Below are positions 23,733-58,194 of a DNA stretch of 64,000 nucleotides, piece by piece. A model generated the notes under the pieces. It worked only from the letters and a program-made list of their open reading frames with translations. It was not told where the DNA came from and ran no database searches. The position numbers and the translations under genes were made by a program. The DNA is from an uncultured Archangium sp. (lineage in GTDB: Bacteria; Myxococcota; Myxococcia; Myxococcales; Myxococcaceae). Each line of letters begins with the position of its first letter. The stretch's first letter is position 1. The DNA lies in the NCBI GenBank assembly GCA_903905455.1, contig CAIVGN010000134.1, forward strand, positions 1-64,000, read 5' to 3'.

Positions 23733-23733
23733 G

Positions 23734-24660: not shown

Positions 24661-24777
24661 AGGAAGCCCTTCGAAACGCCAGACCCGTGATGAACGGCGG
24701 CGGGCGAAAGTTACCGCGCATCACCGCACTTGTACGCAGCAATGTCGCAACGCCCGGGCAGGTGTCACGATGGTGAC

Positions 24778-25473
24778 GTGGCAAGCCCCTTTGACGTTGC
24801 GTGGGTGCGGACGGTGCGGTTCGGCGTACTGGCTGCGATCCCCCTCCCCGCTGGAATGGAACCCGTGCCGGAAGCAGTCCTGGCGCGCCTCACCCCCGAG
24901 GAGCGTGCGTTCGCCACCGGGGAACGCGGACGTCGGCAGATCGAGTACGCCGGAGGGAGACTCGCCGCACGGGCGGCGGCGCAGGCGCTGGGCGTCGACT
25001 GGGGCCCGCTGATGACGGGCGAGGAGCGCGAGCCGCTGGGGCCCGTGGGCTTCACCGTGTCCATTACCCACAAGAACGACCTCGCGATCGCGTTGGTCGC
25101 GCGCGACGCCGAGGGCTGCGTGGGGATCGATCTCGAGGGCGACGGGCGGGCGCGCCTTTCAATCGCCTCGAAGGTCTGCCGTCCCGAGGAACTGCTCGAG
25201 GTCGAAGCGCTGCCTGAACAGGAGAAGTGGCCGTCGGTGATGGTTCGCTTCGCCGTGAAGGAGGCCGTCTACAAGGCGGTGTTTCCCTTTGTGCGGCACT
25301 TCTTCGGCTTCCAGGCCGCATCAGTCGACGTGCACGACGGCGCGCGCGTCACGCTGTACCTGCCCGCGGAAGATCCGGTGATGGTCGTCGAGTCAGAGCT
25401 CGAGTGGATCAACCCCGAGCGCGTACTGGCGATGGTCCGTGCGAAGAAGAAGCGGGTCTTTCCCTCACCCTGA
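24778..25473 (+). CDS. 4'-phosphopantetheinyl transferase (Sfp/EntD type), PfaE-like role
   Basis: The protein has 231 residues from the GTG at 24778 (MASPFDVAW...); an ATG at 24742 would add 12 residues and cannot be excluded. The transferase signature is clear: VSITHKNDLAIAL, GIDLEGD (Mg-binding Asp/Glu, about 112-118) and RFAVKEAVYKAVF (the (W/F)xxKEAxxK motif, about 156-168). It moves phosphopantetheine from CoA to the Ser of carrier domains. The gene faces the PUFA-synthase/ole operon and overlaps the end of oleD by nine bases. I therefore infer that its main job is arming the four ACPs of the 36551-44770 protein, the role PfaE plays in marine PUFA producers. Confidence 0.9.
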   Translation: MASPFDVAWVRTVRFGVLAAIPLPAGMEPVPEAVLARLTPEERAFATGERGRRQIEYAGGRLAARAAAQALGVDWGPLMTGEEREPLGPVGFTVSITHKNDLAIALVARDAEGCVGIDLEGDGRARLSIASKVCRPEELLEVEALPEQEKWPSVMVRFAVKEAVYKAVFPFVRHFFGFQAASVDVHDGARVTLYLPAEDPVMVVESELEWINPERVLAMVRAKKKRVFPSP

Positions 25474-26457
25474 GGCATGGAGCGACTGGGCGAGGCGACG
25501 CAGGCCTTCCTCGACCGTCACCAGGGGCGCGTAGCCGAGGTCCTTCTTGGCCGCGCTGATGTTGAACCACTGCGCGTGGCTCAGCTCGCTGGCAGCGAAG
25601 CGGGTGATCAGCGGCTCGGCGTCGAGGCGCAGCAGCCAGTGCAACGCCTCGAGGGTCGCGCCCGCCGCGTACGCCACGCCCGCGGGAATCGACTTCGTCA
25701 CCGGCCCGACGCCGGCGCAGGCGATCATGCGATCGGCCATCGTCCACACGCCGATCGGCTGGTCGTCGCTCACGAAGTACGTCTTGCCACCCAGTGGAGC
25801 GCCAGCCCGCAGTCGATCCGCGGCGAGCAGGTGAGCGTGGACGCAGTTGTCGATGTAGATGGTGTCGCTCTTCGGATCTCGCGAGCCGATGCGACGCAGC
25901 CGGCCCGTCTTGGCGCGCGCCAGCAACCGAGGGAGCAGGTGTCGATCTCCGGGCCCCCAGATGAAGTGCGGTCGCAGCGCCACCACCTGGAGTCGCGCAT
26001 CGGACGCCGCGCGGGCGAGCTGCTCTGAGAGCGCCTTGGTGCGCGGGTAATGCGCGGTGAAGTGCGTCGCGTAGGGGATCGACTCGTCGGCGCCTTCGAT
26101 GTCGCCATCGGAGTGCACCACGCTCGGTGAACTGGTGTGCACCAGCACCGGGACGCCGGCCTGCTTGCAGCCGTCGACGACGTGCTGGGTGCCGGTGACG
26201 TTGATCGCCTCGTATTCCTTCGGGTCACCCCACCCGCCCGCCTTGGCCGCGGTGTGGAAGACCACGTCCATGCCGACGCAGGCCTGCGCAGTCGCCGCCG
26301 TATCAGTGATGTCACCGCGCACCGTCTCCACGCCGAGCACACGCAACTCCGGGTAGTCCCCGCGCGCGAGCACCCGCACTTCGTCGCCCCGCGCACGCAA
26401 CGCACGCACGAGGTTGCTGCCGAGGAAGCCACCACCACCCGTGACCAGCGCCTTCAT
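25465..26457 (-). CDS. oleD: OleD, NADPH-dependent 2-alkyl-3-ketoacid reductase
   Basis: The protein has 330 residues. It is a short-chain dehydrogenase of the extended 3-beta-hydroxysteroid type: Rossmann motif TGGGGFLGSN (6-15), Asp pair DITD, and catalytic Tyr137/Lys141 in AHYPRTK. OleD reduces the 2-alkyl-3-keto acid made by OleA to the 2-alkyl-3-hydroxy acid. Its ATG at 26457 overlaps the oleC stop as ATGA. The ORF end overlaps the convergent transferase gene. Taken alone it could be any sterol-type dehydrogenase; the oleABCD order fixes the assignment. Confidence 0.9.
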   Translation of the reverse strand: MKALVTGGGGFLGSNLVRALRARGDEVRVLARGDYPELRVLGVETVRGDITDTAATAQACVGMDVVFHTAAKAGGWGDPKEYEAINVTGTQHVVDGCKQAGVPVLVHTSSPSVVHSDGDIEGADESIPYATHFTAHYPRTKALSEQLARAASDARLQVVALRPHFIWGPGDRHLLPRLLARAKTGRLRRIGSRDPKSDTIYIDNCVHAHLLAADRLRAGAPLGGKTYFVSDDQPIGVWTMADRMIACAGVGPVTKSIPAGVAYAAGATLEALHWLLRLDAEPLITRFAASELSHAQWFNISAAKKDLGYAPLVTVEEGLRRLAQSLHASG

Positions 26458-28082
26458 CGACCGAGCCCCTGCTCCGTGGCCCACACCGACAACTTCTCGC
26501 GTTCGATCTTCGCGTTGTGCCGCGCGTCGACCGGGAACGAACCGGGGAAGACGTGGAACTGCGTGAGGTCCTTCGTCACTTCGAACTTCGCGGCCAGCGC
26601 ACGGATCTCCGTGAGCAATGTGTCGGCCGGCATGGTGTTGCCCGGTTCGCGCTCGAGCAGCACCACCGGCTGCTTCGCCACCCCGACCAGCGCCGAACGA
26701 CGCACCCCGGCGTGCTGGTTGAGGATCTCCTCGACGGGCACGCTGAAGAACGTGCGCTCACCGGTGTCCACGCGGTGGCCCTTGCGACCACACATCCACA
26801 GCCGGCCCTGTTCATCGAGGAACCCAACGTCACCCATGCGGTGCACGACCTGGTCGCCGTCCTGGATCTTCGCGGCGGCGGTCTGCAGCGGGCGCGCCCA
26901 GTACTCGCGGGTCACCACGGGCCCCTTCACGGTGATCTCTCCGATGGTGCCTGGCGCCGCGAGCAGCGCGTCCGACCACGTCGCGATGGGCTCGTCAGAG
27001 ATGCGGATGATGCGCACCGTCATGCCCGCGACCGGGCGCCCCACGCACACGCCCCGACCGGTGCTCGCGGCCTGGGCCGTTTCCCCGAGGACCTCGCGGC
27101 TGCCGATGCTCGCGACAGGCAGCGACTCGGTGGCGCCGAAGGGGGTGAACACCTGCGCATCACCCGTCAGCAGCTTCGCCATGCGCTCCAGCACGTCCAC
27201 CCGCACCGGCGCGCCCGCGGAGAGCACCCGCTTGAGCGAAGGCAGCGTCACCGCATTCGCCACACCGTAGCGACCGAGGTTGTCGAGCAACGCGGGGCTG
27301 CCGAACATCATGGTGCAGTGGTGGGTATTGATCGCCTCGATCAACTTCGCCGGGTCGGCCTTGGCGGGGAACTGGAAGTTCATCTCCGGCAGCACCGACG
27401 TCATGCCCAGCGCGGGGTCGAAGAGCGCGAACAACGGGAAGGTGGGGAGATCGATCTCCCCGGGCTTGATGTCGTAGGTGTCGCGGATCATCCGCACCTG
27501 CGCGTCGAAGATCTCGTGCGTGTAGACCGCGCCCTTGGGGATGCCCGTCGAGCCCGAGGTGAAGAGGATCGCCGCCGTCTCGCCCGGCTTCGGTTCGCTC
27601 ATCTGGAAGGGCTCGGTGCCCCCCAGGCGCTGCAGGTCTTCGAGCGTGTGACCGCCCCAGAACCAGCGCTTGCCGATGGTGACGACGGCCTTCACCTTCC
27701 GAAACGGTTTGCGGAACAGCAGTCGCGCGAGGTGGGCCTTCGGCACGCCGATGAACGCCTCGGGCTGCACTTCTTCGAGGCACTCGAGCAGCGCCTTGCG
27801 ACCGATGCCCGGGTCGATGAGCACCATCACCGCGCCCGCCTTGAAGAGCGCGAACACCAGGGGGAAGAACTCGAGGCTCGGCGGCGCGAGCAGCACCGTG
27901 CGCATGCCGCGGGTGATGCCGATCTGCTGCAGGCCCCGCGCGTAGGCGTCGCTCAACGCGTCGAGCTCGCCGAAGCTCATCGACTTCCACTGGCCGTTGC
28001 CCGACGGCGCGATGATCGCCGGCCGCTTCGGGTCCAGCTTCGCCATCGCGGGGAGATGCGAGGCGATGTTGGTGCTGGTCAT
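26454..28082 (-). CDS. oleC: OleC, beta-lactone synthetase (AMP-ligase superfamily)
   Basis: The protein has 542 residues. It is an ANL-superfamily adenylating enzyme: the P-loop-like LFTSGSTGIPKG (173-184), FGATES (A5 region), the hinge motif MGDVGFLDEQGRLWMCGRKGHRV, and a C-terminal subdomain ending in HNAKIERE with the late Lys. In ole clusters this protein uses ATP to convert the 2-alkyl-3-hydroxy acid to a cis-beta-lactone instead of making an acyl-CoA. The gene starts at 28082, overlapping oleB (ATGA), and ends overlapping oleD. No fusion to OleB is present; the fused OleBC form occurs in some actinobacteria. Confidence 0.92.
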   Translation of the reverse strand: MTSTNIASHLPAMAKLDPKRPAIIAPSGNGQWKSMSFGELDALSDAYARGLQQIGITRGMRTVLLAPPSLEFFPLVFALFKAGAVMVLIDPGIGRKALLECLEEVQPEAFIGVPKAHLARLLFRKPFRKVKAVVTIGKRWFWGGHTLEDLQRLGGTEPFQMSEPKPGETAAILFTSGSTGIPKGAVYTHEIFDAQVRMIRDTYDIKPGEIDLPTFPLFALFDPALGMTSVLPEMNFQFPAKADPAKLIEAINTHHCTMMFGSPALLDNLGRYGVANAVTLPSLKRVLSAGAPVRVDVLERMAKLLTGDAQVFTPFGATESLPVASIGSREVLGETAQAASTGRGVCVGRPVAGMTVRIIRISDEPIATWSDALLAAPGTIGEITVKGPVVTREYWARPLQTAAAKIQDGDQVVHRMGDVGFLDEQGRLWMCGRKGHRVDTGERTFFSVPVEEILNQHAGVRRSALVGVAKQPVVLLEREPGNTMPADTLLTEIRALAAKFEVTKDLTQFHVFPGSFPVDARHNAKIEREKLSVWATEQGLGR

Positions 28083-28999
28083 GCGTCTTTCCCGGCGAGC
28101 GGGTGCTTCGCGAGGAAGGTGCGCATCAGGGCGATGATCTCCTCGTGCGCGTCTTCCAGCACGTAGTGACCTGCGTCCTCGAAGACGTGCACGTCCGCCT
28201 CGGGCAAGCGGCGGCGCCACTCGGCGAGGAACGCGTCGTCGAACACGAAGTCCTTGCGGCCCCAGCAGATCAACATCGGCACCTTGCGGAACTGCTCGAG
28301 CTTCTCGGACACCTCGGCGACGACCGGCCAGCTGCGATCACCGGGCGCGAGCGGAATGTCCTCCACGAAGCGCTGCACGGCGATGCGGTGCTCCCACGAG
28401 TCGTAGGGCGCGAGGTACGCCTCCTTGATGAGCGGGCTCATTCGACCGGGGCGCGTGCTGCACCACAGGTTGGCGCCGCGGGAGAACGCGTTGAAGCCGC
28501 GCACCGGGAGCGGGAAGAACGGCGCGTAGCGCACCATGCCCACCTGCCACGGCAGCTTGCGCCCCGGGGGCAGCCCGAAGCCGGCGGTGTTGAGCACCAC
28601 GAAGCGCTTCACGCGGCCCGGGTTCTTCGTGGCCCACGCCAGGCCGATCATCCCGCCCCAGTCGTGCACCACGAGCGTGATGTTGTCCTTGAGCCCGAGC
28701 GAGTTGATGAGCTTGTCGAGGTCGGCCACGCGGCGCTCGAGCACGTACTCGTAGCGATCGTCACCCGGCTTGTCCGACAGCCCGCAGCCCACGTGATCGG
28801 GGACGATCACCCGGTACTCCGAGGAGAACGCGGTGACGAGGTTGCGCCAGTAGAAGCTCCACGTCGGGTTGCCGTGGACCATCACCATCGGCTCGCCCTT
28901 GCCCTCGTCCAGGTAGTGCAGGCGCACGCCCTGCCCCACGTCGAGGAAGTGGCCCTGCCAGGGGTACAGCGACTTGTACGGCGTCACGTCGAAGGTCAT
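28079..28999 (-). CDS. oleB: OleB, beta-lactone decarboxylase (alpha/beta hydrolase)
   Basis: The protein has 306 residues from the ATG at 28999, which has GAGGG about six bases upstream. It is a haloalkane-dehalogenase-like alpha/beta hydrolase: oxyanion motif HGNPTW (42-47), nucleophile Asp113 in VVHDWGG, and base His278 in EDAGHYV. The Asp nucleophile, instead of Ser, is what OleB uses to open the beta-lactone, releasing CO2 and the cis-olefin. It sits eight bases after oleA and overlaps oleC. OleB and OleC are known to assemble with OleD in large complexes. Confidence 0.92.
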   Translation of the reverse strand: MTFDVTPYKSLYPWQGHFLDVGQGVRLHYLDEGKGEPMVMVHGNPTWSFYWRNLVTAFSSEYRVIVPDHVGCGLSDKPGDDRYEYVLERRVADLDKLINSLGLKDNITLVVHDWGGMIGLAWATKNPGRVKRFVVLNTAGFGLPPGRKLPWQVGMVRYAPFFPLPVRGFNAFSRGANLWCSTRPGRMSPLIKEAYLAPYDSWEHRIAVQRFVEDIPLAPGDRSWPVVAEVSEKLEQFRKVPMLICWGRKDFVFDDAFLAEWRRRLPEADVHVFEDAGHYVLEDAHEEIIALMRTFLAKHPLAGKDA

Positions 29000-29007
29000 C
29001 ACGTCCC

Positions 29008-30048
29008 TCACCAATGAAGTCCGAGCATGAGGCAGTTGAGTCCGCTCCCGATACCGAGGAAGCCGACCCGTTGCCCTGCCTGGAGAAAGCCTGACTCTGC
29101 TGCGTACGCCGCGGTGATCGGTACCGACACCGTGCCCATGTTCCCGAGCGTCTCGAAGGTCGAATGATCTCGCGTGGGCTCGATGCCCAGCGTCGAGAGC
29201 ACCTCGCGGCGATGCCCTGCGCCCACCTGGTGCGCGATGACGCGATCGACGTCCTCGCTGCGCCAGCCGCTGTTGCTCAAGAAGCGGTCCCACGTGTTGC
29301 GACCCAGCGCCACGCCGTGCTCGAGCACCCCGGAGGCGTCGGTATCCATGATGTTCGGGGTCTCGCCGAGCAGCCCATTCGTCGGGCCCCAGCGACAGAG
29401 CCGGTGGTGCTGCGGGGCGGACAGCGCGGCGCCGGACACGAGGCGGTGCTCGGTGCCCGAATAGTCGGCAGCGGTCAGCAACACGGCCGCGGCGCCCGAG
29501 CCTCCGGTCATCGTCGCCAGCCCCAGCCGGTACCGCTCGAGCGTCGGCTCGCCGTTGAGGCGATCGATGCTGCGATCGACGATCTCCCGCGAACTCTCGG
29601 CCGAGACCACCAGGCCCGCGCGCATCTGGCCCAGCTCGATGCGGTTCGCGACCTCCACCATCGCGTTCAACATGCCGAGGCACGCGTTGCTGATGTCGAA
29701 GATCAGCGCGTCGGGACCCGTGCCCAACTCGGCGGCGACGGCACACGCGGTGGCGGGCTCGAGATCATCCCGGCACACGCCGGCGTAGACCACCGCACCG
29801 AGTTCGTCCGCGGGGACGCCGCTCGCCGCGAGCGCCTTGCGGCCCGCCTGCGCCGCGGCCTGAGACATGCGCGTGCCCTTCGGCCACCGACGCCGCTCGC
29901 GAATGCCCGTGAGCGACTCGAGCTGCCCGGGCGCGAGGTGGAGCGTGCGGTACATCGGCTCCAGCCGCGCCTCGAGTTCAGCCGAGGTGACGACTTCGTC
30001 CGGCACCACCGCGGCGATCGCCTCGACGTGCACGTTCTTCCAACGCAT
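29008..30048 (-). CDS. oleA: OleA, head-to-head acyl condensing enzyme (thiolase fold)
   Basis: The protein has 346 residues from the ATG at 30048. It is a KAS III-like thiolase with catalytic Cys123 (SNACLGM), His273 (IAHQVG) and Asn303 (LGNMG). The RDDLEPAT segment (93-100) supplies Glu97, the residue that sets OleA apart from FabH by acting as the base in the non-decarboxylative Claisen condensation of two acyl thioesters. The start overlaps the pfaC stop (TGATG at 30046-30050), so OleA is made right after the PUFA synthase subunit. I infer that its acyl donors are the polyunsaturated products of the two upstream megasynthases. Confidence 0.92.
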   Translation of the reverse strand: MRWKNVHVEAIAAVVPDEVVTSAELEARLEPMYRTLHLAPGQLESLTGIRERRRWPKGTRMSQAAAQAGRKALAASGVPADELGAVVYAGVCRDDLEPATACAVAAELGTGPDALIFDISNACLGMLNAMVEVANRIELGQMRAGLVVSAESSREIVDRSIDRLNGEPTLERYRLGLATMTGGSGAAAVLLTAADYSGTEHRLVSGAALSAPQHHRLCRWGPTNGLLGETPNIMDTDASGVLEHGVALGRNTWDRFLSNSGWRSEDVDRVIAHQVGAGHRREVLSTLGIEPTRDHSTFETLGNMGTVSVPITAAYAAESGFLQAGQRVGFLGIGSGLNCLMLGLHW

Positions 30049-33000
30049 CAGGCGTCCTCCCGGACCAACCGCAGCGGGAAGTCCTTCATCGCGTAGATGA
30101 TCTTCCCGTCCACCAGGAGCTGCCCCTCGGCGACGATCAACGGCTCGGGGCCATCGACCACCCGCGTGATGTTCGCCTGCACCAGCACCGTCGCGTTGGT
30201 GGGGATCACCTGGCCTCGGTACTGCCACGTGTGCGGCGCGCCCACCGCGAGCGACTGGAAGCGGTGCGTGTGCTGGAGAGCCGGGAACCGCTCGCGCGCC
30301 CACACCCCGAGCAACTGGACCATCGCCTCGAGCCCCAGCGAGCCCGGCATCACCGGGTCCTGGAAGAAGTGCGCCTGGAAGAACCACTCCTTTGTGTCCA
30401 CCTGCTTGCTACCGCTGACGAAGCCGAGGCCCTGCGAGCCACCGTCCATCGAAAGCGACTCGACGTGGTCGACCATCGCGAAGGCCTTCGCTGGCGCCAT
30501 GAGCCCGCGCGAGAGGAAAGGAGTCACCTCGTCCGGCGTGAACGGCGCGTCGAGGGGCAACGCGAAGGCCCGCGCGTTGGGCGGCGTGAAGGCCGCGGCG
30601 CCACGGATGCCCACCTGCTGCTCGAGCGCTGCCTTGGGGAAGAAGCCGAACCCCGTGGAGCCCGTGTAGATGGGCTCACCCTCCGCGAGCACCTCGAAGT
30701 CGAACGACTCGAGGATCATGCCGCCCGCCTTCGACACCTTCGTCATGCGCGACTTGAGGGTCAGCGTGCCGATGTCGGGGTGCACCTCGCGGTGAATGGT
30801 CGCGGTGCCGTCGAGGTTGCGGAACTTGAGATCGTCGCTGCTCTCGAGCGCCGAGCCCGCGTACGCCGCGAGGAAACCGCAAGGTTGCAGGGCGGCCTCG
30901 AGCAACACCGCGAAGGGCATGGTGCGCTGCCGGTTCGCCGCGAAGTACCAGGCGTCCGGAGGCACGTCGTACTCGCAGGTGATCCACCCGCCGGCCTTGA
31001 GCTCGAACGGCTTCGGCTCGCAGTGCAGCACGCGATCCATGAAGAGGTACGGCGGCCGCGGCAAGCGCGCGAGCTTCCGCTCGGCGTCGAACATCGTGTA
31101 GCGATCCCCGAAGCACTTCGAGGGAGCGCCTTCGCAGTACTCGAGGATCTGCTCGCGGGTGAAGCGCACCGAGGGCACCGCGGGCCGGGCACTGAAGAGC
31201 CGGTCGAGGCGCTCCTTCGTCAGGCCGCGAATGCGCACCGACATGCCTTCCATCTGCACCACGTGCTTGCCGTCGGCGTACATCGAGGCCGTGGCGACGA
31301 CGAAGGGCTCCGGGTCGTAGCCGATCTCATCGATCTCCACGCGGTACTGGACCTTCTTCGTGGAGGGCAGCACCTGGCCGCGGCACTTGAGCTGGCTGGC
31401 CACGCCTTCGATCGGCGCGTAGTGCAGATCGACGTCGCTCGCGTCATCGACCCAGCCCTGCCGCAGCAAGAGCACGCGAAGGGTGTGCAGGCAGCACTCG
31501 TACATCAGGGTCCCCGGCATCACCGGGTCTTCCTTGAAGTGCGAGGTCAGGTACCAGGCGTCCGGGGTGACGTCGTGCTCGCCGATGACCAGGCCATGGC
31601 GTGCGACGCCGCCAGCGGTGTCCAGCTCGAGGATGCGATCCACCAACCGCATGCGTCCATCGGGCAGCCGCAGCGCAGGCGCGAGCGTGGAGATCGGGAA
31701 GTCGATGCCGAAGGCCGCGCGCACATCGCCCGTCCGCAGCGCGTCGACCTGGGCCTCGTTGAGCGTCGCCGTGCCTGAGGGGAGCAGCGGCGTGAAGGGG
31801 TGCGTCATCGCCCTCGGCGTGCGCGCCTTCGGCCGGCCTTCGAGCACGATGCCCTTGCCGGCCTCGAGCTGCTCACTGCTGAAGAAGCCCGCGCACCCAT
31901 CGAACATGGTGATGAACGGCTGCCCGTCGATCGTGCCGTCGAAGCGGAAGAAGAACAGCCACGTGTCGCCCTGCTTGATGAAGCGATCGATGCGGATGTC
32001 GTAACGGATGACCTCGCCCACGCGTGGGAGATCGCGGTGGAACTCGATCTTCGCGTCGAGCAGCCGGTAGACCCGCTGGCCCTTGGTCTGGAGATCGATG
32101 CCCAGGTACGCCGAGAGGAAGAGATCGGCCTGCCCTGCTTCCACGCTGATGCACACCGGGACGCGACCGCCATCGAGGTACCAGGCCCCCGCGTGCACGT
32201 CGTGCTCGGTGATCACCCGGCCAGAGGTCAGGCTGCCCATCTCGCCTTCGACCTCGACGATGCGATCCACCAACATCAACGGCTCGTCGGGGAGCCGCAC
32301 GCGCGTCGGGTAGGTGTCCACCTCGGCGAACATCGGCCCGAGCATCTTCGGCAGCGAGCCGATGGCGAACTCGAGGCACATCGCGCGATCGAAGCGGGCC
32401 TTCGGGGCGGCGGCCACTCGCGTCACCACCGGCGCCGGGGCCGCGGGACGGTGCCCCTGCAGCAGCGCGTGTTGCGCCTGGAGGATCTGGGTCTGCAGCT
32501 GCGCGGACTGCGCGGACATCTGCAGGAAGACTTCGTGGGCTTCGGACGTCGCGCGCATCGAGGCGGTGAGGGCCGCGAACCTGTCCGGTGAGGCTGAGAT
32601 CGTCATGGGCGGCGGCGGGGGAATTCCCCTCTCCGTGACCCTCACCGCCGGCGGGGGCGAGGGAATGAGTGATGCGCTTCCGAGCTGGAGGGTGACGTTT
32701 CGAACCGCCGGGGCCTTCGGGAAGGTCACCCCCGCGGCCGGGGCATAGAGCGCGTCCAGGGACACCGGCGCACCCGCTTCGGCGACGCGGGCCATGCACT
32801 GCAGCAGCGTGAGGTAGCCGTCTTGCCCGCGCTGGCAGGCCGAGACCGCGAGATGCGGACGCCCCTCGAGAATGCGCCCGATCATCCGCGTGCACGAAGC
32901 CTGGGGGCCGGCTTCAACGAAAATGCGAACCCCGTCGGCCCACGCGCGCTCGATGACCTTCGTGTAGTCGAACCCGTGCAGCGCATCGTCCGTCACCGAG

Positions 33001-36000
33001 TCGGCGGCCACGTCGGTCGTCACCTCGTAGGGGCGGGCCCAGGCGGCGCTGTAGAACCGCACACCCGCGGGCGGGGTCGCCGCAAGCACGTGCAGCGCCC
33101 GGTACTCGGCCTTCACCGCTTCGACGATGGGCAGGTGCACCGCGGGCACGCCTTCGAGGAACACCGCCTCGCCGCCGAGCTTGGCAATCGTCGCGCGCAC
33201 GTCTTCGCGGTTGCCGCCCACCACGCACTCGCGGGGCGCGTTGACGATCAGCAGCGCCGCCGTCCCTTCGAGCGCCGCGCGCACTTCCGCCTGGGGCCGC
33301 ATCACCAGCGCGACCGTCCACTGGGCGTCAGCCCCCCAGGCATCCTTCACCACCGTGCACGGCCCGCCGAGCTGTGTGCGGAAGAGCGGTGACTCCAGCG
33401 TGCGGCGGAACATCACGTCGCGATCGCGCCAGGCCCGCGAAGAGAAGAGGCCGGCCGATTCACCCAGCGAGTAGCCGATGAAGGCCTTGGGCACGAGGCC
33501 CAGCAGCGCGAGCCCTTCGGCCACCGACAGCCCGTGCGTCACGTGGCGCACGATGATGTCGGACAGCCCATCCTTCGTGGGCGGCGCGAGGTGCATCGCC
33601 AGGGACTGCGAGTCGCGGTCGAGCCGCGCGAGGGTCTCCGGCAGCGCGAGGTGCAGCGCGCGACCCATGCCGTCGAAGTGCGTGCCCGAGCCGGGGAAGA
33701 CGAAGGCCACGTCGCCCGCGAGGCGCATCGGCGCGGGCTTCTCGAACTCGAGCTGGCGGAGCAACTCGTCGACCGAGGTCGCCACCATGGCCCAGGTCGC
33801 GACCGTGCTCGGGTGGCTGCGATGCCAACGCGCCGCGAGGCGATCGATGGACTCCCCGCGGAGGGACTCGACGAGCGTCCGCAGCGCCGCGCGATCGGCC
33901 GGCGAAGCGAGGAGGAAGAGACCCGCGCTGCGATGACCCGCTTGCGCCGAGGTGACCGCGCGACCTTCGGGCGCCTGCTCGAGCACCACGTGCACGGCCG
34001 AGCCATCGAGCCCCAGCGACGTCACGCCCGCGCGTCGAGGACCCTCGGATCGATTGCGCGCCCACGGTCGAGCCGCGGCGCCGTTCAACGACGGCAGCAC
34101 CTCGTGGTGCAGGCTCAGCGTCGCCTTGACGAGCGAGGTCAGGCCAGAGGCCGCGCCCAGCGTTCCGGCCATCGCCGCCATCGAACCAAACACCGCGTCG
34201 GGGCCCGCGATCGAACGCATCGTGGCCAACTCCCGCGCGTCTTCCTGCGCTGCGCCCGTGGCGTGCGCCTCGAAGAGCCGCGCCGAAGTCGCGAGGACAC
34301 CCGAGTCCGTCCACGCCCGGGACACCGCCTGCTCGAGCCGCGTCGCACCCGACGCCGCGCCGACGCCGCGCACCACCGCGTAGATCCGGTCTCCGTCGCG
34401 GACCGCGTCGTCGAGCCGCTTGAGCACCACCGCCGAAGCACCCTCGCCCGGCACCGCGCCCGGCGACTTCGGCTCGAAGGCCCGCGGCGCGCCGTTGCGC
34501 GAGAACCGCGAGAGGCCATCGGCCGCGAAGACCCTCCGCACGTCGCCTGCGAGATCGACCGCGCCCACCACCATGCGATCGACTTCGTGCCGCTGCAGCA
34601 GTCGCGTCGCGATCTCCAGCGCCCGGAGACCGCCGGCCTCTTCCGCCTGCACGCCGAAGCTGGGCCCGCCCAGCGAGAGCTCGCGCGCCAGCCGGCTGGC
34701 GACGATGCCACCGAGCGCCCCGAGGGTTCGCTGCGCGTCCAGGGGCGCAGACACCGAATCACACAGCCGCTGCAGCGCCGCTTCGTCGAGCTCGAGGCCC
34801 CAGCGGCGCGCGCGCTCACGCATCACCCAGCGCAGCTGGAACGACGTGGTCTCCAGGTCGAGCCCGAGGCCGACGATCGCCCCGGTGCGCGCGTGTGGAC
34901 CGGCGCCCAGGCCGCCGGCGTCTTCCACGGCGGCGCTCGCGACCTGCAACATCAACAACTGCTGCGGCAACACCGAGGGAATCTCCAGCGGCGGCAGCTT
35001 GAAGCGCCCCACGGGGATCTCCAAGGACTCGATCCACCCGCCGAGCGACACCTCGGCGACGTCACCAATCGTCCCCTCGAGCCCACGCCAACGGCCCGCG
35101 GGGCGCGTCGACAGGCCGCCTTCACCGCGCAGCATCGCCTGGCAGAACGCATCCACGGTCGAGAGCGAGCCCACGTGCAGGCCGAGCCCAACGATGGCCA
35201 CCGCCTCATTGGGCGCTGAGACCTCGACGCGCAAACCGGGGCCCACGTACTCCTCGAGCAACACGTGCGCGTTGATGCCGCCAAAGCCAAATCCGGACAC
35301 GGCCGCGCGGCGGGGCTCGCCGGCCTTCGTCGCCCACGCCTTCGGGCGCTCGAGCACGTCGAAGGGCCCGGTGCGCAGCGACGGCGTCAGCGTGGCCGAG
35401 GTGACGTTCGCGCTCGGAGGCAACTGCTGGTGCGCCATCGCCTGCAGCACCTTGCCCAGGCCGGCCATGCCCGCGGCCGTGAGCAGGTGGCCCACGTTGC
35501 TCTTCACCGAGCCGATGACGCAGCGCTCGCTCGAGTCGCCCCACATCGTTGCCAGGGTCTTCAGCTCGACCTGGTCTCCGCGCGGGGTGCCGGTGCCGTG
35601 GCACTCGACCAACTGCACCGCCCCGGGCTGCCACTCGGCCTGGGCGTAGGCCGCGCGCATCGCCCGCAACTGCCCTTCGGATTCCGGCGACAACAGGCTG
35701 CCACCGACGTCGTTGGAGACGCCGACGCCGCGGATCACCCCGAGGATGCGGTCTCCGTCCCGCGCTGCGTCGTCGAGGCGCTTGAGCACGACCATGCCCG
35801 CGCCTTCACCGACCACCAACCCGTCAGCATGCACCCCGAACGGCGCGCAGATGCCGCTGGGCGAGAGCGCCTGCAACTGGGTGAAGCCGACCTGCGTGTA
35901 GAGCGACTGCGGCAGTGACACGCCACCGGCCAACACCGCGTCGAGACGACCGGCCTCGAGCTCGATGCAGCCCAGGTGCAGCGCATACAGCGACGAGGCA

Positions 36001-36554
36001 CAGGCCGCGTCGAGCGTGTAGCTGCCACCTCCCAACCCCAGCACCTGCGCGAGGAGCCCAACCGGCAACGCGCTCGGGAACGCGTCCATCGGCTCGACAT
36101 GCGGCACCGCCGGCTTCCCGAGGAGCTCGGCTTCGAGCGCCCCGAGGACGAGCTGTTCAGAGAGGGCCGAAGCGCCGTCGGTGGGCAACGCGATGTTGGC
36201 GACGATCGCCGCCGTGCGCGCGCGGTTCACCTTCACCTGACCCAGCGCCTCGACGCCGACCTGCAACGTCAACTTCGCCAGCGCGCTGAGTCGACCGACG
36301 AGGTTCGGCGGGAGCACCACCTCGCCCAGCTCCAACTCGAAGGGCTCGAGCACGCACGCGATGCGCGACTTCGCGGTGTCGGGCGTGCCCTTCGCCGAGA
36401 TGACGTCGGCCGCGGGCGCCGGCCACCGCGAGGCAGGCACCTCGCGCGCCGCGGAGCGTCCCTCGGACACGAGCGTCCACAGCGCCTCGACCGAGGCGGC
36501 ACCGGGGAAACGCCCCGCCATGCCCACGATGGCAATCGCGCGACGAGCCGTCAT
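30048..36554 (-). CDS. pfaC: PUFA synthase subunit PfaC-like: KS-CLF-AT-DH-DH
   Basis: The protein has 2168 residues from the ATG at 36554, overlapping the upstream stop as ATGA. Domains in order: KS (about 8-435) with Cys185 in DAACASS, CHGTGT and SNVGH; chain-length factor (about 445-860) whose active Cys is lost (VQAEEAGG) and whose HGTGT motif is HATGA; acyltransferase (about 945-1235) with Ser1029 in GYSLGE; a Gln-rich helical linker (about 1321-1369); then four hot-dog folds (about 1385-2168) forming two FabA-type dehydratases. The catalytic His motif is SHFKEDPVMPG near 1671 and AHFFQDPVMPG near 2061. These FabA-like domains introduce and isomerise the cis double bonds. Unlike some myxobacterial Pfa3 proteins there is no C-terminal acyltransferase (AGPAT) domain. 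Confidence 0.92.
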   Translation of the reverse strand: MTARRAIAIVGMAGRFPGAASVEALWTLVSEGRSAAREVPASRWPAPAADVISAKGTPDTAKSRIACVLEPFELELGEVVLPPNLVGRLSALAKLTLQVGVEALGQVKVNRARTAAIVANIALPTDGASALSEQLVLGALEAELLGKPAVPHVEPMDAFPSALPVGLLAQVLGLGGGSYTLDAACASSLYALHLGCIELEAGRLDAVLAGGVSLPQSLYTQVGFTQLQALSPSGICAPFGVHADGLVVGEGAGMVVLKRLDDAARDGDRILGVIRGVGVSNDVGGSLLSPESEGQLRAMRAAYAQAEWQPGAVQLVECHGTGTPRGDQVELKTLATMWGDSSERCVIGSVKSNVGHLLTAAGMAGLGKVLQAMAHQQLPPSANVTSATLTPSLRTGPFDVLERPKAWATKAGEPRRAAVSGFGFGGINAHVLLEEYVGPGLRVEVSAPNEAVAIVGLGLHVGSLSTVDAFCQAMLRGEGGLSTRPAGRWRGLEGTIGDVAEVSLGGWIESLEIPVGRFKLPPLEIPSVLPQQLLMLQVASAAVEDAGGLGAGPHARTGAIVGLGLDLETTSFQLRWVMRERARRWGLELDEAALQRLCDSVSAPLDAQRTLGALGGIVASRLARELSLGGPSFGVQAEEAGGLRALEIATRLLQRHEVDRMVVGAVDLAGDVRRVFAADGLSRFSRNGAPRAFEPKSPGAVPGEGASAVVLKRLDDAVRDGDRIYAVVRGVGAASGATRLEQAVSRAWTDSGVLATSARLFEAHATGAAQEDARELATMRSIAGPDAVFGSMAAMAGTLGAASGLTSLVKATLSLHHEVLPSLNGAAARPWARNRSEGPRRAGVTSLGLDGSAVHVVLEQAPEGRAVTSAQAGHRSAGLFLLASPADRAALRTLVESLRGESIDRLAARWHRSHPSTVATWAMVATSVDELLRQLEFEKPAPMRLAGDVAFVFPGSGTHFDGMGRALHLALPETLARLDRDSQSLAMHLAPPTKDGLSDIIVRHVTHGLSVAEGLALLGLVPKAFIGYSLGESAGLFSSRAWRDRDVMFRRTLESPLFRTQLGGPCTVVKDAWGADAQWTVALVMRPQAEVRAALEGTAALLIVNAPRECVVGGNREDVRATIAKLGGEAVFLEGVPAVHLPIVEAVKAEYRALHVLAATPPAGVRFYSAAWARPYEVTTDVAADSVTDDALHGFDYTKVIERAWADGVRIFVEAGPQASCTRMIGRILEGRPHLAVSACQRGQDGYLTLLQCMARVAEAGAPVSLDALYAPAAGVTFPKAPAVRNVTLQLGSASLIPSPPPAVRVTERGIPPPPPMTISASPDRFAALTASMRATSEAHEVFLQMSAQSAQLQTQILQAQHALLQGHRPAAPAPVVTRVAAAPKARFDRAMCLEFAIGSLPKMLGPMFAEVDTYPTRVRLPDEPLMLVDRIVEVEGEMGSLTSGRVITEHDVHAGAWYLDGGRVPVCISVEAGQADLFLSAYLGIDLQTKGQRVYRLLDAKIEFHRDLPRVGEVIRYDIRIDRFIKQGDTWLFFFRFDGTIDGQPFITMFDGCAGFFSSEQLEAGKGIVLEGRPKARTPRAMTHPFTPLLPSGTATLNEAQVDALRTGDVRAAFGIDFPISTLAPALRLPDGRMRLVDRILELDTAGGVARHGLVIGEHDVTPDAWYLTSHFKEDPVMPGTLMYECCLHTLRVLLLRQGWVDDASDVDLHYAPIEGVASQLKCRGQVLPSTKKVQYRVEIDEIGYDPEPFVVATASMYADGKHVVQMEGMSVRIRGLTKERLDRLFSARPAVPSVRFTREQILEYCEGAPSKCFGDRYTMFDAERKLARLPRPPYLFMDRVLHCEPKPFELKAGGWITCEYDVPPDAWYFAANRQRTMPFAVLLEAALQPCGFLAAYAGSALESSDDLKFRNLDGTATIHREVHPDIGTLTLKSRMTKVSKAGGMILESFDFEVLAEGEPIYTGSTGFGFFPKAALEQQVGIRGAAAFTPPNARAFALPLDAPFTPDEVTPFLSRGLMAPAKAFAMVDHVESLSMDGGSQGLGFVSGSKQVDTKEWFFQAHFFQDPVMPGSLGLEAMVQLLGVWARERFPALQHTHRFQSLAVGAPHTWQYRGQVIPTNATVLVQANITRVVDGPEPLIVAEGQLLVDGKIIYAMKDFPLRLVREDA

Positions 36555-39500: not shown

Positions 39501-42500
39501 ACCGACGGCGCCCCCGGAATGCGCCGCGAGAGCATCGAGAGGATCTCCACCCGCTTGATCGAGTCGATGCCGAGGTCGGCCTCGAGATCCATCTCCAGCG
39601 AGAGCGTGTCCACCGGGTAGCCGGTGAGCTCACAGACCGTGCTCAGCAACGTGGCCTTCACGTCGACCGACGGAACCGCGGACGCCACGGCCACCGGGGC
39701 AGCCACCTTCGCCACGCCATTGCGGCCGACGAACTCGGCGACCTGCTGCAGCGTACGCAGCCCGCTCAATTGCTCGGGGTTCACCGAGGGCGCACCGGGA
39801 ATGCGGCGCGACACCATCGAGAGGATCTCCACGCGCTTGATGGAGTCGATGCCGAGGTCGGCCTCGAGATCCATCTTCAGCTCGAGGGTCTCGCGCGGGT
39901 ACCCGGTGGCCTCGGCCACGGCGCTCAGGAGGATCGCCACGGAGTCCACCGGCGCCTCCAGGGCGTGCGCGACCTTGCCGTTCGACTTCGGCGGCAGTGC
40001 AGCCACGACGACCACCGGCGCAGGCAACGGCGCGGGGACTTGCGCGACCAGGGCCGGCGCGGAAACAGGGGAGAAGACCGGCATCGGCCTCGGGGCCTGC
40101 CCCGTCATCATCGACGCGAGCGTCTGCTGCGTCGCCATCTGCCCTTCGAGGAAGCGCTGGTGCACGCGGGCGGTCTGTTCCTGCAACGACTGCAACGCGC
40201 CCAGGCTCGCCTGGTGCTGGCGCAGGAGATCGCTCATGCCCGCATCGAGGTTCACCGGCGCCGCGAGCTCTTGACGCTGCACGACAGGCTTCGCGGCGCG
40301 CGGGGGGATCGCCTTGGTCGGCGAGCGGTAGTTCGCGCCCGTCAACGGCACGACCATCTTCGGCACGCGAGGCGCCTTGTTCGTCCACCGGGGGGGATTC
40401 ACGGCCCGGTTCCACTCGGCCAACCGAACCGGGTGTCCCTGCGCGGCCAACTGCGCCAGCGCGAGGGCGAAGTCGAACACCCCACCCCGACGCCCCTGGG
40501 CATCGAGGGCCACGGCGGTGAAGCTGCGCTGCCCGAGGATCGCCTTCACCATGCTGGTGAGCGCCGACTTCGGTCCCACCTCGAGGAAGGTGCGCGCGCC
40601 GGCGGCGTAGAGCGCCTCGACCACCTCGTCGAACCGGACCGGCTTCGCCAGCTGGTGCGCGAGCAGGGCCCGCGCCCCCGCTTCGTCCGCGGGGTACGGC
40701 TTGGCGGTGGTGTTGGCGATCACCGGCACGCGGGGCGACGAGAACTCGACCTCCGTCAGCGCCTGCTGAAACGACGTCGCCGCGTCGGCCACCAGCGGGC
40801 TGTGGAAGGCCGCGCCCACGTTGAGCCGGGTCGCGCGCATCGAGCGCGCCTTGCAGGCCACCTCGGCCTTCGCGATCTCCTCGCGCGAGCCCGAGAGCAC
40901 GCCCTGCGACGGGCCGTTGCGGTTCGCGAGCACCAGCGAGAGCTTCTCTTCCGCGAGCAGCTTCTCGATGTCGGCCAGCGGCGCGAGCACCGCGAGCATG
41001 GTGCCGCGGTCAGAGCCGTCACCGGCCATCAACTGGCCACGCTGGCGGGACGCCCGGGCCAGGCCTTCGGCGCTCAGCACCCCCGCCGCGTGCAGCGCGA
41101 CGAGCTCACCGTAGCTGTGACCTGCGAGCAGCTTCGCGTCGACCCCGAAGCGGGCCAGCACGCCCAACAACCCACGCTCCACCGCGCCCAGCGACGGCTG
41201 CGCGATGTCGGTGCGCGTGAGGTACGCCTCGCGCGTCGCCTGCTTCTCGGCGTCGAAGGTCGGCAGCGGGTACACCGCGCCGGCCAGCGCCGGGTCTGCG
41301 TCGACGGCCTCGAGCACCTCGGGGAAGAGGCAGGCCAGCTCGCGGAGCATGTCCACGTGCTGCGCGCCCTGGCCGGGGAACAACAGGGCCAGCGAGCCGG
41401 TCGCCGGGCCCACGCCGTAGACCGCGCCCTCGGGGAGCGTGAAGCCCTGCGAGGGATCCTTGGCGATGCGGGTGCGCAGCGTCGCGACGAGATCTTCCCG
41501 CTTGGTCGAAGCGGAGATCAGCACCACGAGGCGGTGCGCGTCGCTCACGCGGAAGGACTCCCGCGTCGACTGCGCGAAGGAGGCCAGGGTCTCGGTCTTC
41601 GCCAACTCGGTGAGCTTGCCCTGCACGCTCGCCACGTCGGCCCCGGAGATGGACACCAGCTCCACCGAGCCATCCCACGCGGGGGCGGAGCGGCGATCGC
41701 CGTACTCCTCGAGCACCGTGTGGAAGTTGCTGCCACCGAACCCGAAGGCGCTGACCGCCGCACGACGGGGGCCCCGAGCGCTCGACATCCACGGGCGGGC
41801 GACGGTGGGGATGGAGAACGGGCTCTGTTCCAGCTTGAGCACCGCGTTGGGCTTGTCGATCTTGATGGTCGGCGGCAGCACCCGGTGGTGCAGCGCCAGC
41901 GCGGCCTTGATCAACCCCGCGGCTCCGGCGGCCGCCTTGGTATGGCCAATCTGCGACTTCACGGCCCCCAGCGCGCACCACGCCGGGTCCTGCGAGTCGG
42001 CGCCGTAGACCTTCTGCAGCGCCTCGAACTCCGCGGCGTCACCCGCCTTGGTGCCCGTGCCGTGGGCCTCGACGAGGGTGATGTCGCGGGGGGTGACGCC
42101 GGCGTCGCGGTAGGCCGCCTCGAGCGCGCGCGCCTGCCCGGAGGCCAGCGGGGCGTAGATGCTCTTGGCCCGGCCGTCGCTCGAGGTGCCGATGCCGCGG
42201 ATCACCGCGTAGACGCGATCGCCGTCGCGCTCGGCGTCGGAGAGGCGCTTGAGCACCACCATGCCGATGCCTTCGCCCAACAGCGTGCCGTCGGCCTGGT
42301 CGGAGAAGGGCCGCGCATCACCAGACGCCGACAACGCGGGCGTCTTGCTGAAGCACATGTGCATGAAGATGTCGTTGAGGGTGTCGACGCCGCCGGTGAG
42401 CACGAGATCGGTGCGACCCGACTCCAGCTCCGCGATGCCCAGGTGCAGCGCGCCCAGCGAGCTCGCGCAGGCCGCGTCGACGACGCAGTTGGTGCCACCG

Positions 42501-44770
42501 AGATCGAAGCGGTTGGCGATGCGCCCGGCGACCACGTTGCCCAGCAACCCGGGGAACGAGTTCTCCTGCCAGCCCACGTACGAGGCGCTGATGCGCGCCA
42601 CCACGTCTTGCGCCGTCTCCGCGTCCACGCCCGCCTCGGCGAGCGCCTTCTTCCAGTGCGGGTGACCCAGCCGGGCCCCCAGCGAGATGACCAACTCCTG
42701 CGTGCCAGTCACCCCGAGCAGCACGCTGGCGCGCGCCCGGTTCCACGCCACGTCTTCGCCGTAGCCCGCGTCTTCCAGCGCCATGCGCGCGACCACCAGC
42801 GCCAGCAACTGCGAGGTATCGGTGGCCTCGAGGATCGACGGCGGAATGCCGAACTCGGTGGGATCGAACTTCGTGGTGGGGAGGAACCCGCCGCGCTTGG
42901 CGTAGGTCCGATCCGGCGACTTCGGGTCGGCGTCGTAGAAGTCCTCGAGCGACCAGTGCGTGTTGGGGATCTCCCCCGTGGCGTCATCGCCGGTGCGGAT
43001 CAGCTTCCAGAACTCCTGCAGCGTCGCCGACTTCGGGAAGAGCGCGCCCATGCCGACGATGGCGATGGGATCCTTCGTCCGCGCGGGGCTCTTCGGCGCG
43101 CCGGTGACCGGGGCCGGCTTCACCTCGGCGCCCACCAGCAGCGCGTCGAGTTCCAGGTGCGTCCGCGGCGCGAAGTGTTCGACCTCCGGGGGCAGCACCA
43201 CGCCCTGGCTGCGCAGCGCGGTGGCGCGGCTGAGCACGCAGGCGCCGACCAGCAGGTTCCGGGCGATGAGCACCGCCTCGCGCGCGTTCCACGGCTCGAG
43301 CACGCTGCCCTGCGCCCACGCGTTGAAGGCGCCCATCGAGGGGCCACACCACACCTGGTAGTCGAGCTTGCGCTCCACCACGCCCGCGTTCGCCCAGCGC
43401 GAGGCCTGGCCGAGGTACGCGCGGAACACGAGCGCCATGCGGTGCTTCGGGTCGCTCGCGGCCTTCTCCAGCTGCGCCGGGTCGCGCTTCCCGAAGAAGT
43501 CCACGCAGCCCTGCCACGCCTGCTCCAGCGTGGACTTGAAGTACTTCGCCTCCAGCTCGTCGCGCACCGCGGCCGGCAAGGCTTCGAGGCTCGCGTGGGC
43601 GCGGTACAGCTCGAGCAGCCGCTGCGCGCGCACCGCGAACAACGTGCCGCGCGTGAGCACCTGCACCTTCACGCCCATCTCGAACATGTCCGCGGCCGGG
43701 GCCATGGCCACGTCGGTGGTGGCGGCCTTCGCGAGCATCTCGCGCACCGCGTCGGACGTGCCCGCCTCGCGCGTCGCCTGGTTGATGCTGCCGGTCACCA
43801 CGTAGGCCGCGCCCATGGAGAACGCGGTGGCCACGCTGGCCGGGGTCGCCAGCCCACCGGCGGCGCCGATGCGCGGACGCAGGGCGTAGCGGTGCTGGGC
43901 ACAGACCTCGTCACGCAGCGCCTGCAGCGCGGGCAGCAGCAGCACCAGCGGCCGGTTGTCCGTGTGCCCGCCCGAGTCGGCCTCGGCGGTGACGTCGTCG
44001 GCCATCGGGACCAGGGCGGCGAGCTCGGCCTCGGCGGCCGTGAGCTGTCCCTTGCTCACCAGCTCGGCCAGCAGCTTCGCGGGTGCGGGCTCGAGGAACT
44101 TCCGGGCCACCTCCACGCGCGAGACCTTGGCCATCACCCGGTGGGGCACCACGATGGCGCCGCTCGCGTCACGGTGCAGGCCGGCCGCGCGGTACCGCAC
44201 CACGGGCAGGGTCAGGTCGAGGTACGCCGACGCGCTGACGAAGCGCACGCCGCGCGCGAGGAACAGCTCGACCAGCGCCGCCTCGAGCCTCTGATCGTCC
44301 GGCGAGTGGATGAGGTTGATGCCCCAGGTCTTTCCCGCCAGCGACGCCGAGAGGCGATCGAGGGCCTCGGTGACGCGCTCCAGCGACAGCCCCGCCGCGC
44401 CGAACACGCCCAGGTAACCCGCACGGGTCACGGCCTCGACCAGCGCCTCCGAGGCGATGCCGTTGGCCATCTCGCCGGCGACGTAGGCCGCCTGCACCCC
44501 GTAGGCGCGCAGGAAGGTCGCGTCGCCGAGCCGGTCCGGGGTCAACGCCGGGGCGTGGCCCAGCAGCCGGAGCTCACCCTCCGCCTGGGTCCCGCCGAGC
44601 TTCGCCACCCCGCCCTCGCCCACCGCCGGAACCCCGTCTCCTTCCACGAGGTTGAGGGGCCTTGCCACCTGCGCGAGGCCTTCGCGAAACGCGAGGGGTC
44701 CCGTCTTCGGTCGGGAGGTGCCAGGCACCCAGGAGCCGAGGGCATGAGAAGCGAGATCGGGACGGTTCAC
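36551..44770 (-). CDS. pfaA: PUFA synthase PfaD-PfaA fusion: ER-KS-AT-4xACP-KR-DH
   Basis: The protein has 2739 residues from a GTG at 44770 with GGAG six bases upstream. The first 540 residues are a complete PfaD-type FMN enoyl reductase (VEADSGGHTDNRPL, RIGAAGGLATPASVA, VTGSINQATREAG), normally a separate protein. Then come KS (about 565-1010; Cys768 in DAACASS), malonyl acyltransferase (about 1120-1430; Ser1219 in GHSYGE), a Gln-rich helix (about 1510-1552), four ACPs with LGIDSIKR serines at about 1643, 1737, 1828 and 1918, KR (about 2000-2450; VTGGARG near 2180, Tyr2370) and a C-terminal DH (His2477 in HRLSGREVLP). It extends and processes the growing polyunsaturated chain with the PfaC-like subunit. 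The ER-first fusion is unusual. Confidence 0.92.
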   Translation of the reverse strand: MNRPDLASHALGSWVPGTSRPKTGPLAFREGLAQVARPLNLVEGDGVPAVGEGGVAKLGGTQAEGELRLLGHAPALTPDRLGDATFLRAYGVQAAYVAGEMANGIASEALVEAVTRAGYLGVFGAAGLSLERVTEALDRLSASLAGKTWGINLIHSPDDQRLEAALVELFLARGVRFVSASAYLDLTLPVVRYRAAGLHRDASGAIVVPHRVMAKVSRVEVARKFLEPAPAKLLAELVSKGQLTAAEAELAALVPMADDVTAEADSGGHTDNRPLVLLLPALQALRDEVCAQHRYALRPRIGAAGGLATPASVATAFSMGAAYVVTGSINQATREAGTSDAVREMLAKAATTDVAMAPAADMFEMGVKVQVLTRGTLFAVRAQRLLELYRAHASLEALPAAVRDELEAKYFKSTLEQAWQGCVDFFGKRDPAQLEKAASDPKHRMALVFRAYLGQASRWANAGVVERKLDYQVWCGPSMGAFNAWAQGSVLEPWNAREAVLIARNLLVGACVLSRATALRSQGVVLPPEVEHFAPRTHLELDALLVGAEVKPAPVTGAPKSPARTKDPIAIVGMGALFPKSATLQEFWKLIRTGDDATGEIPNTHWSLEDFYDADPKSPDRTYAKRGGFLPTTKFDPTEFGIPPSILEATDTSQLLALVVARMALEDAGYGEDVAWNRARASVLLGVTGTQELVISLGARLGHPHWKKALAEAGVDAETAQDVVARISASYVGWQENSFPGLLGNVVAGRIANRFDLGGTNCVVDAACASSLGALHLGIAELESGRTDLVLTGGVDTLNDIFMHMCFSKTPALSASGDARPFSDQADGTLLGEGIGMVVLKRLSDAERDGDRVYAVIRGIGTSSDGRAKSIYAPLASGQARALEAAYRDAGVTPRDITLVEAHGTGTKAGDAAEFEALQKVYGADSQDPAWCALGAVKSQIGHTKAAAGAAGLIKAALALHHRVLPPTIKIDKPNAVLKLEQSPFSIPTVARPWMSSARGPRRAAVSAFGFGGSNFHTVLEEYGDRRSAPAWDGSVELVSISGADVASVQGKLTELAKTETLASFAQSTRESFRVSDAHRLVVLISASTKREDLVATLRTRIAKDPSQGFTLPEGAVYGVGPATGSLALLFPGQGAQHVDMLRELACLFPEVLEAVDADPALAGAVYPLPTFDAEKQATREAYLTRTDIAQPSLGAVERGLLGVLARFGVDAKLLAGHSYGELVALHAAGVLSAEGLARASRQRGQLMAGDGSDRGTMLAVLAPLADIEKLLAEEKLSLVLANRNGPSQGVLSGSREEIAKAEVACKARSMRATRLNVGAAFHSPLVADAATSFQQALTEVEFSSPRVPVIANTTAKPYPADEAGARALLAHQLAKPVRFDEVVEALYAAGARTFLEVGPKSALTSMVKAILGQRSFTAVALDAQGRRGGVFDFALALAQLAAQGHPVRLAEWNRAVNPPRWTNKAPRVPKMVVPLTGANYRSPTKAIPPRAAKPVVQRQELAAPVNLDAGMSDLLRQHQASLGALQSLQEQTARVHQRFLEGQMATQQTLASMMTGQAPRPMPVFSPVSAPALVAQVPAPLPAPVVVVAALPPKSNGKVAHALEAPVDSVAILLSAVAEATGYPRETLELKMDLEADLGIDSIKRVEILSMVSRRIPGAPSVNPEQLSGLRTLQQVAEFVGRNGVAKVAAPVAVASAVPSVDVKATLLSTVCELTGYPVDTLSLEMDLEADLGIDSIKRVEILSMLSRRIPGAPSVNPEKLSGLKTLAQVHAFISAAVPSAPAEVVVAAPSVPVDATLLSTVCELTGYPVDTLSMEMDLEADLGIDSIKRVEILSMLSRRIPGAPSVNPEKLSGLKTLAQVRDFIAQGLPSVVAAVVSAPVVSVDATLLSTVSELTGYPVDTLSMEMDLEADLGIDSIKRVEILSMLSRRIPGAPSVNPEKLSGLKTLAQVRDFIAQGAPSAAAPVAVVVAKKPLVPKQLVVRRAVMPIRAAAPSGVGVRLPSATIVVTRDGTGLSEALARAFERAGHPCVVQDLGHPLPALIGGVVVVAPAQTTDLHLKQALKLAREASSSLRSTPHAFFATLTHRDGAFGFVTAGHALVGGFAGLPKSLSHEWPEVRCRAFDVSSLWTPDEAAAAFVEELTNEGPAELGIGPSGRVTLGLRTSDAVVATDRLKSGDVVIVTGGARGVTADCARELAKATGATLVLLGRSPAPIAEAEWLAAAKDETAIKKALLDHAPAGQRPSPKQLGEAFKLVMAGRDIRATLEGLASLHVRAEYRQVDVRDAAAVAAVMAEARSLGPIRGVVHGAGVLRDKRIEDKRDDDFDQVLDPKLGGLHAVLEATREDDLTVIALFASVTGRFGRRGQSDYAVANQALVSIAQAEGARRPHARVVALDWGPWAGGMVTPALEATFRAEGVSLIPLDGGARAFVAESLAAAGSGSEIVLGAGFGEELEAGWTLAHTERIDATWPVLAAHRLSGREVLPLAMVLDWFTGAARASVNGHVLLGLDDVRVLKGVTLQGGPESLSVWTGPVEVQGLEATMPLELRNLRDQVHVRAVARFGPPGATTSPTLAPAGLAPFTTSVETVYREQLFHGPSLEAITAIEGLGEEGMTLTLRAHPTTEQLVPGPARAWSSDPLVVDGIFQALIVWTRARLGAPSLPSRVDSLRWLRPIVGASVRAVVKVRSVEGASVVSDIELVDATGALVGKLSGYQCTVSSTLARAFESESSSIRSTPSA
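38893..39945 (-). repeat. Four tandem ACP-coding repeats
   Basis: Inside the PfaD-PfaA gene four carrier-protein units repeat with spacings of 270, 273 and 282 bases, measured between the LGIDSIKR codons (Ser codons at 39842-39844, 39560-39562, 39287-39289, 39017-39019). The three downstream units are nearly identical in DNA over long stretches, while the first is more diverged. This suggests recent unequal recombination or gene conversion. Multiple ACPs in PUFA synthases act in parallel and raise product titre. Confidence 0.9.
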
Positions 44771-46740: not shown

Positions 46741-46821
46741 CGGGCCGCCGTAGCGCAAAGCGTCAGCGCTGGCGTGGCCCACCCCAAGTCGGGGCAGGAC
46801 GCCTCACGCAAGGACCTGTAA

Positions 46822-58140: not shown

Positions 58141-58164
58141 GGGAAGCCTCCGGAGGAACGCGGC

Positions 58165-58194
58165 ATTGACCGCGAAATTGATTCTCAAGTCAAT
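58165..58194. promoter_or_regulatory. Spaced ATTGAC half-sites in the rarA/BKACE divergent region
   Basis: ATTGAC at 58165-58170, ATTGAT at 58177-58182 and the inverted GTCAAT at 58189-58194 are spaced exactly 12 bases apart in an AT-rich patch between divergent genes. A helical-turn-like spacing suggests operator half-sites. The patch also contains a TTGACT-type -35 box for the BKACE gene. Confidence 0.35.

Follow-up and report, generated by a model that had tools for sequence, protein, structure and literature searches.

A pfa-ole operon in an uncultured Archangium: a well-conserved example of a known gene layout and a candidate route to long-chain polyunsaturated olefins

Introduction

Does the close association of PUFA synthase genes with the oleABCD genes in a myxobacterial genome represent a self-contained pathway to a long-chain polyunsaturated olefin, and is such an arrangement new? 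The question is raised by a locus in the genome of an uncultured Archangium species (8.6 Mb in 251 contigs), which we analyzed within a stretch of 64,000 nucleotides, hereinafter the window. Several elements of the answer have precedents: ole genes were reported in 2011 to be 'often linked' to pfa clusters (PMC3098273), and expression of Shewanella genes in E. coli has shown that OleA links the Pfa and Ole pathways in vivo (PMC6463001).

Organization of the locus

The locus is a six-gene operon on the minus strand that consists of pfaDA, pfaBC, oleA, oleB, oleC, and oleD, all of them intact (Table 1). The genes are tightly packed, neighboring frames overlapping by 1 or 4 nt at all but one of the five junctions: a 4-nt ATGA overlap between pfaDA and pfaBC, a 1-nt TGATG overlap between pfaBC and oleA, and 4-nt overlaps at both the oleB/oleC and oleC/oleD junctions; oleA and oleB are separated by an 8-nt gap. 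The PPTase gene converges on oleD, with a tail-to-tail overlap of 9 nt, and this convergent placement is conserved in the loci of relatives. A sequence-only reading of the window had proposed a PUFA synthase pair and oleABCD in a single minus-strand operon closed by a convergent PPTase, and the gene structure bears this out. That reading did not mention the fusion of the PfaD enoyl reductase to the N-terminus of PfaA; the start of pfaDA is a GTG codon at 44770, where the stretch delimited in that reading ends, and the start of the PPTase gene is refined to 24742, the previously given position 24778 being an alternative GTG start.

Table 1. Features of the pfa-ole locus, its neighbors, and related gene pairs (window coordinates unless a locus is named)
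Feature	Coordinates	Strand	Length, matches or remarks
pfaDA, fused PfaD enoyl reductase and PfaA	36551..44770	-	2739 aa
pfaBC	30048..36554	-	2168 aa
oleA, head-to-head condensing thiolase	29008..30048	-	346 aa
oleB, alpha/beta-hydrolase (haloalkane-dehalogenase-like), candidate beta-lactone decarboxylase	28079..28999	-	306 aa
oleC, olefin beta-lactone synthetase, AMP-binding family	26454..28082	-	542 aa
oleD, 2-alkyl-3-oxoalkanoate reductase, SDR	25465..26457	-	330 aa
Sfp-type 4'-phosphopantetheinyl transferase (PPTase)	24742..25473	+	PF17837 and PF01648
ArsA-like ATPase pair	22623..24633	-	PF02374 matches; syntenic neighbor outside the locus
Kup-type K+ transporter	44848..46782	-	PF02705, 605 bits; upstream neighbor
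Extra OleA-like and OleD-like pairs	L140:1298-3228, L141:13397-15327, L142:7098-9031		g26 relatives G135, G130, G136

Domain architecture and catalytic motifs

Judged by the profile bit scores relative to the respective cut-offs, the gene assignments are far beyond chance. The domain order of PfaDA, according to Pfam and NCBIfam, is ER-KS-MAT-4xACP-KR-DH, with a DH of the PKS type; the PfaA profile TIGR02813 scores 1582 bits (cut-off 1010) and the PfaD profile TIGR02814 scores 618 bits (cut-off 449). The ER domain aligns with the solved PfaD structures 6lkc/4yx6, the catalytic motifs are present, and there are four tandem ACP sites (DLGIDSIKR). In PfaBC, Pfam delineates KS-CLF-AT followed by four FabA-like hot-dog domains, two of which keep the HFxxDPVMPG active-site motif; the KS-CLF portion aligns with the solved 6riw, and the second KS-like domain has QAEEAGG at the position expected for the active-site Cys. 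Thus, all the elements of a PUFA synthase are in place, namely, PfaA with KS, MAT, tandem ACPs and KR, the PfaC-type KS-CLF with pairs of FabA-like DH domains, and the PfaD-type ER. An AGPAT domain (PF01553) was not detected in PfaBC with Pfam, and the operon includes no pfaT-like thioesterase gene. No second PUFA synthase was found in the genome: beyond the window, the identity of the other matches does not exceed 38%, and the top two lie in PKSs that carry AMP-binding or aminotransferase domains.

The Ole half is likewise complete, with oleA, oleB, oleC, and oleD all present together. OleA scores 457 bits (cut-off 285) against PRK09258, the family into which OleA falls, its best matches among solved structures being 3fk5 (E 3e-57) and 3row (E 4.5e-56), and alignment with 3fk5, a solved OleA-type chain, indicates that the catalytic residues are kept, namely, the Cys in NACLG (residue 123) and the Glu in RDDLEPAT. 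OleB has Pfam and NCBIfam matches and keeps the VHDWGG nucleophile motif; because oleB is present, an olefin rather than a free beta-lactone is expected (PMC7064751). OleC reaches 641 bits with NF045786 (olefin beta-lactone synthetase), which is below the strict equivalog cut-off, and 708 bits with NF006754, and keeps the FTSGSTGIPKG motif. For OleD, the highest scoring of all families is NF042422 (385 bits, again below the strict equivalog cut-off), with matches to 2-alkyl-3-oxoalkanoate reductase models and a conserved YPRTK motif. A search of the whole genome detected no second OleA, and there was no match to plasmid-borne OleA.

The whole genome contains only two PF01648 matches (C134:25120-25368 and C167:37094-37393), both in reading frames longer than 220 aa, and no short AcpS was found, so fatty-acid synthesis may rely on an Sfp-type PPTase as well.

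Distribution and co-inheritance of the pfa-ole unit

Among 195 Myxococcota genomes (thresholds: E <= 1e-50 for OleA and E <= 1e-160 for PfaA), OleA was found in 34 and PfaA in 35, and 23 encode both. In 12 of these 23 genomes, the two genes are linked, either on a single contig (G000, which is the genome of the window, G131, G132, G134, G136, G143, and G145) or, where the contig is broken, with PfaBC immediately preceding OleA (G089, G093, G130, G133, and G135). In six genomes where the flanks are readable, pfa and OleA are separate (G051, G052, G139, G182, G183, and G185), and five are undecidable (G049, G161, G170, G184, and G186), including G170, which has a fused pfaDA and in which the only OleA detected is of another type and is encoded on a different contig. 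PfaBC lies beside OleA in G088 as well, and the linkage is kept in 13 Myxococcota genomes from three families (f1, f9, and f10). Both arrangements occur in the genus of the window itself: the locus analyzed here is linked, whereas G051 and G052 are unlinked and have a distant OleA (about 40% identical). Hence, among environmental Myxococcota, the pfa-ole unit is both widely distributed and stable.

The linked loci cluster together in both the OleA tree and the KS tree, and the OleA and KS distances are correlated (Mantel r 0.86, n 16, 0 of 5000 permutations), although some agreement of this kind would follow from vertical descent. The unit is not confined to Myxococcota: ten pfa loci were read in genomes from the class of a Pseudoxanthomonas (Gammaproteobacteria), and one of them, in G440, has the full pfaD-A-BC-oleA-B-C-D order. 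In the OleA tree, G440 is the sister to the linked myxococcotal G145, and in the KS tree it groups with G145, G324, and G537; these positions suggest that the pfa-ole unit has moved between phyla. A scan of named genomes with patterns special to the OleA of the window returned almost only Opitutaceae and is uninformative on the overall distribution. These Opitutaceae relatives are 43-48% identical to the OleA of the window, and no PUFA synthase was detectable in ten such genomes; thus, the OleA sequence alone is no proof of a PUFA substrate. In many Opitutaceae loci (L017-L047), OleA adjoins OleB, with no OleC or OleD detected within the stretch examined, and a beta-ketoacyl-synthase gene is often located some 4-6 kb away.

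The presence of the AGPAT off-loading domain varies with the arrangement, albeit imperfectly. According to Pfam, PF01553 is absent from all five linked PfaBC proteins tested (the window, G132, G093, G143, and G145) and is found in PfaC of the unlinked G139 and G051. The PfaC proteins of the unlinked G182, G183, and G185 also lack AGPAT, so that its absence is not diagnostic, the contrast holds in part, and its use as a strict marker of linkage was rejected. The result is a natural comparison, even within one genus, between ole-linked synthases without AGPAT and unlinked ones with it, through which it becomes directly testable how Pfa products are channeled into hydrocarbon versus phospholipid, a long-standing question.

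A further elaboration is seen in three relatives (G135, G130, and G136), in which an extra pair of OleA-like and OleD-like proteins, 29-39% identical to those of the window, is encoded between oleD and the PPTase gene. The OleA-like copy in G135 keeps the NACLG and FEP motifs, and the pair might be responsible for a second condensation product.

Relationship to described systems

The closest described counterpart is the Type I locus of Geobacter bemidjiensis Bem (Shulse and Allen 2011), with pfaD-A-B-C-oleA-B-C-D-pfaE in tandem, which makes C31:9 (PMC4882568). Comparison with the published descriptions reveals the same genes in the same order, with the PPTase at the end and the fused pfaBC of Type I (PMC4882568, PMC3098273): in the window, too, fused pfaBC, oleABCD, and the PPTase stand in tandem with pfaD-A. 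The differences are that here pfaD and pfaA form one gene, the PPTase is convergent, and the host belongs to Myxococcota. In Photobacterium profundum SS9, the pfa and ole operons are also adjacent, but they are distinct operons that flank the gene for the pfaT thioesterase (PMC6463001); no pfaT was seen here. The proposed chemistry resembles the Pfa-OleA route to hentriacontanonaene (C31:9) in Shewanella (PMC6463001), where, unlike here, pfaA, B, C, and D are separate genes.

With the Type L synthases of the myxobacteria Aetherobacter, Sorangium, and Minicystis, the locus shares a 5' pfaD followed by pfaA and fused pfaBC. However, Pfa3 of Aetherobacter and Minicystis carries AGPAT and the PPTase of Aetherobacter is encoded elsewhere (PMC4882568, PMC6731297), whereas the PfaBC of the window is devoid of the C-terminal AGPAT (PF01553) expected of Type L, and its ole genes and PPTase are attached. 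In Plesiocystis, Shulse and Allen noted ole genes besides a Type L cluster (PMC3098273). The pfaD-pfaA fusion is shared with clusters of Ottowia, Aquimarina, and Flavobacterium, which have been likened to Renibacterium; those, however, are hybrid PKS-NRPS clusters for which no ole genes are mentioned (PMC13291983). The fusion was rejected as a novelty, given that it is described already (PMC13291983) and that pfaD and pfaA are unfused in some linked loci (G145a and, judging by frame length, G440).

The locus is therefore a real, well-conserved example of a known layout and not a new system; the possibility that the linked arrangement might be undescribed is not supported, in view of PMC3098273, P. 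profundum SS9 (PMC6463001), and G. bemidjiensis (PMC4882568). A literature search that covered few subscription papers found no paper on a pfa-ole locus in Myxococcota. What this analysis adds is the tally of linked and separate loci in Myxococcota, the clustering of linked loci in the OleA and KS trees, the AGPAT comparison, and the occurrence of both arrangements within one genus.

Predicted pathway and alternative explanations

The best explanation of these findings is that the locus is probably a self-contained operon that directs the synthesis of a long-chain polyunsaturated olefin, the product being predicted from the gene content. The PPTase would arm the four ACPs of PfaDA, and PfaDA together with PfaBC would assemble malonyl units, cycle by cycle, into a methylene-interrupted polyunsaturated acyl chain, through extension by KS and KS-CLF, KR and FabA-type DH/isomerase steps, and, in some cycles, ER. 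OleA would then condense two such chains head to head, OleD would reduce the resulting 2-alkyl-3-keto acid, OleC would close the beta-lactone, and OleB would decarboxylate it to the olefin. There is good support for the coupling itself, in which a PUFA synthase supplies OleABCD; the substrate, product, chain length, and hand-over from ACP to OleA are predicted. Of the original proposal, the functional route stands, in agreement with the overlapping operon, the co-inheritance, the absence of AGPAT, and the Pfa-OleA link shown with Shewanella genes.

The PUFA synthase could serve mainly membrane phospholipids, with OleABCD drawing a side stream as in Shewanella, where EPA and C31:9 both come from a single Pfa synthase (PMC6463001); there is no further PUFA synthase in the genome that could supply the membranes. 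Canonical PfaC proteins, as described, have no AGPAT and yet supply phospholipid EPA (PMC3098273), so that the suggestion of the sequence-only reading that no free PUFA is needed can be advanced only as a conjecture. Nevertheless, oleA overlaps pfaBC, the operon contains no thioesterase gene, and the linked PfaBC proteins lack the AGPAT found in the unlinked neighbors G139 and G051, which together make a side stream unlikely. Conversely, the linked AGPAT-less synthase might be a specialized lineage, inherited or transferred together with OleA as a unit across phyla, in which OleA would take chains directly from the ACPs of PfaDA and the cell would make polyene hydrocarbon without any membrane PUFA; this stronger version of the olefin pathway is a tentative proposal that we consider possible rather than probable.

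Two other explanations would sever the connection to a polyunsaturated olefin. The products of several pfa-like clusters are lipids other than PUFAs (PMC3098273, PMC13291983) and the sequence does not reveal the chain type, so the synthase could produce a reduced or otherwise modified chain that is not polyunsaturated, the product of the locus being a different neutral lipid; the complete complement of PUFA synthase domains, which includes KS-CLF, two FabA-type DH motifs, a PfaD-type ER, and four ACPs, renders this very unlikely. Still less credence can be given to the idea that the PUFA synthase and Ole enzymes are merely neighbors, with OleA condensing ordinary branched or saturated fatty acyl-CoAs: even though the OleA of Xanthomonas and Stenotrophomonas use products of the core fatty-acid synthase (PMC6463001) and the Opitutaceae relatives lack a detectable Pfa, the overlapping genes, the persistence of the linkage between distant relatives and in a second phylum, and the congruent trees all speak against it.

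Genomic neighborhood

The genes on either side do not appear to belong to the system. In most Myxococcaceae-like carriers, the locus is flanked by the ArsA-like ATPase pair, which was rejected as a component since it persists in congeners without the linked locus; for the same reason, the pair marks the chromosomal site of loss or insertion of the pfa-ole operon. The Kup transporter was rejected as well, none being seen beside orthologous loci. Elsewhere in the window (57268-59409), there is a gene for a 713-aa protein in which a C-terminal BKACE domain follows an N-terminal part of approximately 427 residues that matches no Pfam family.
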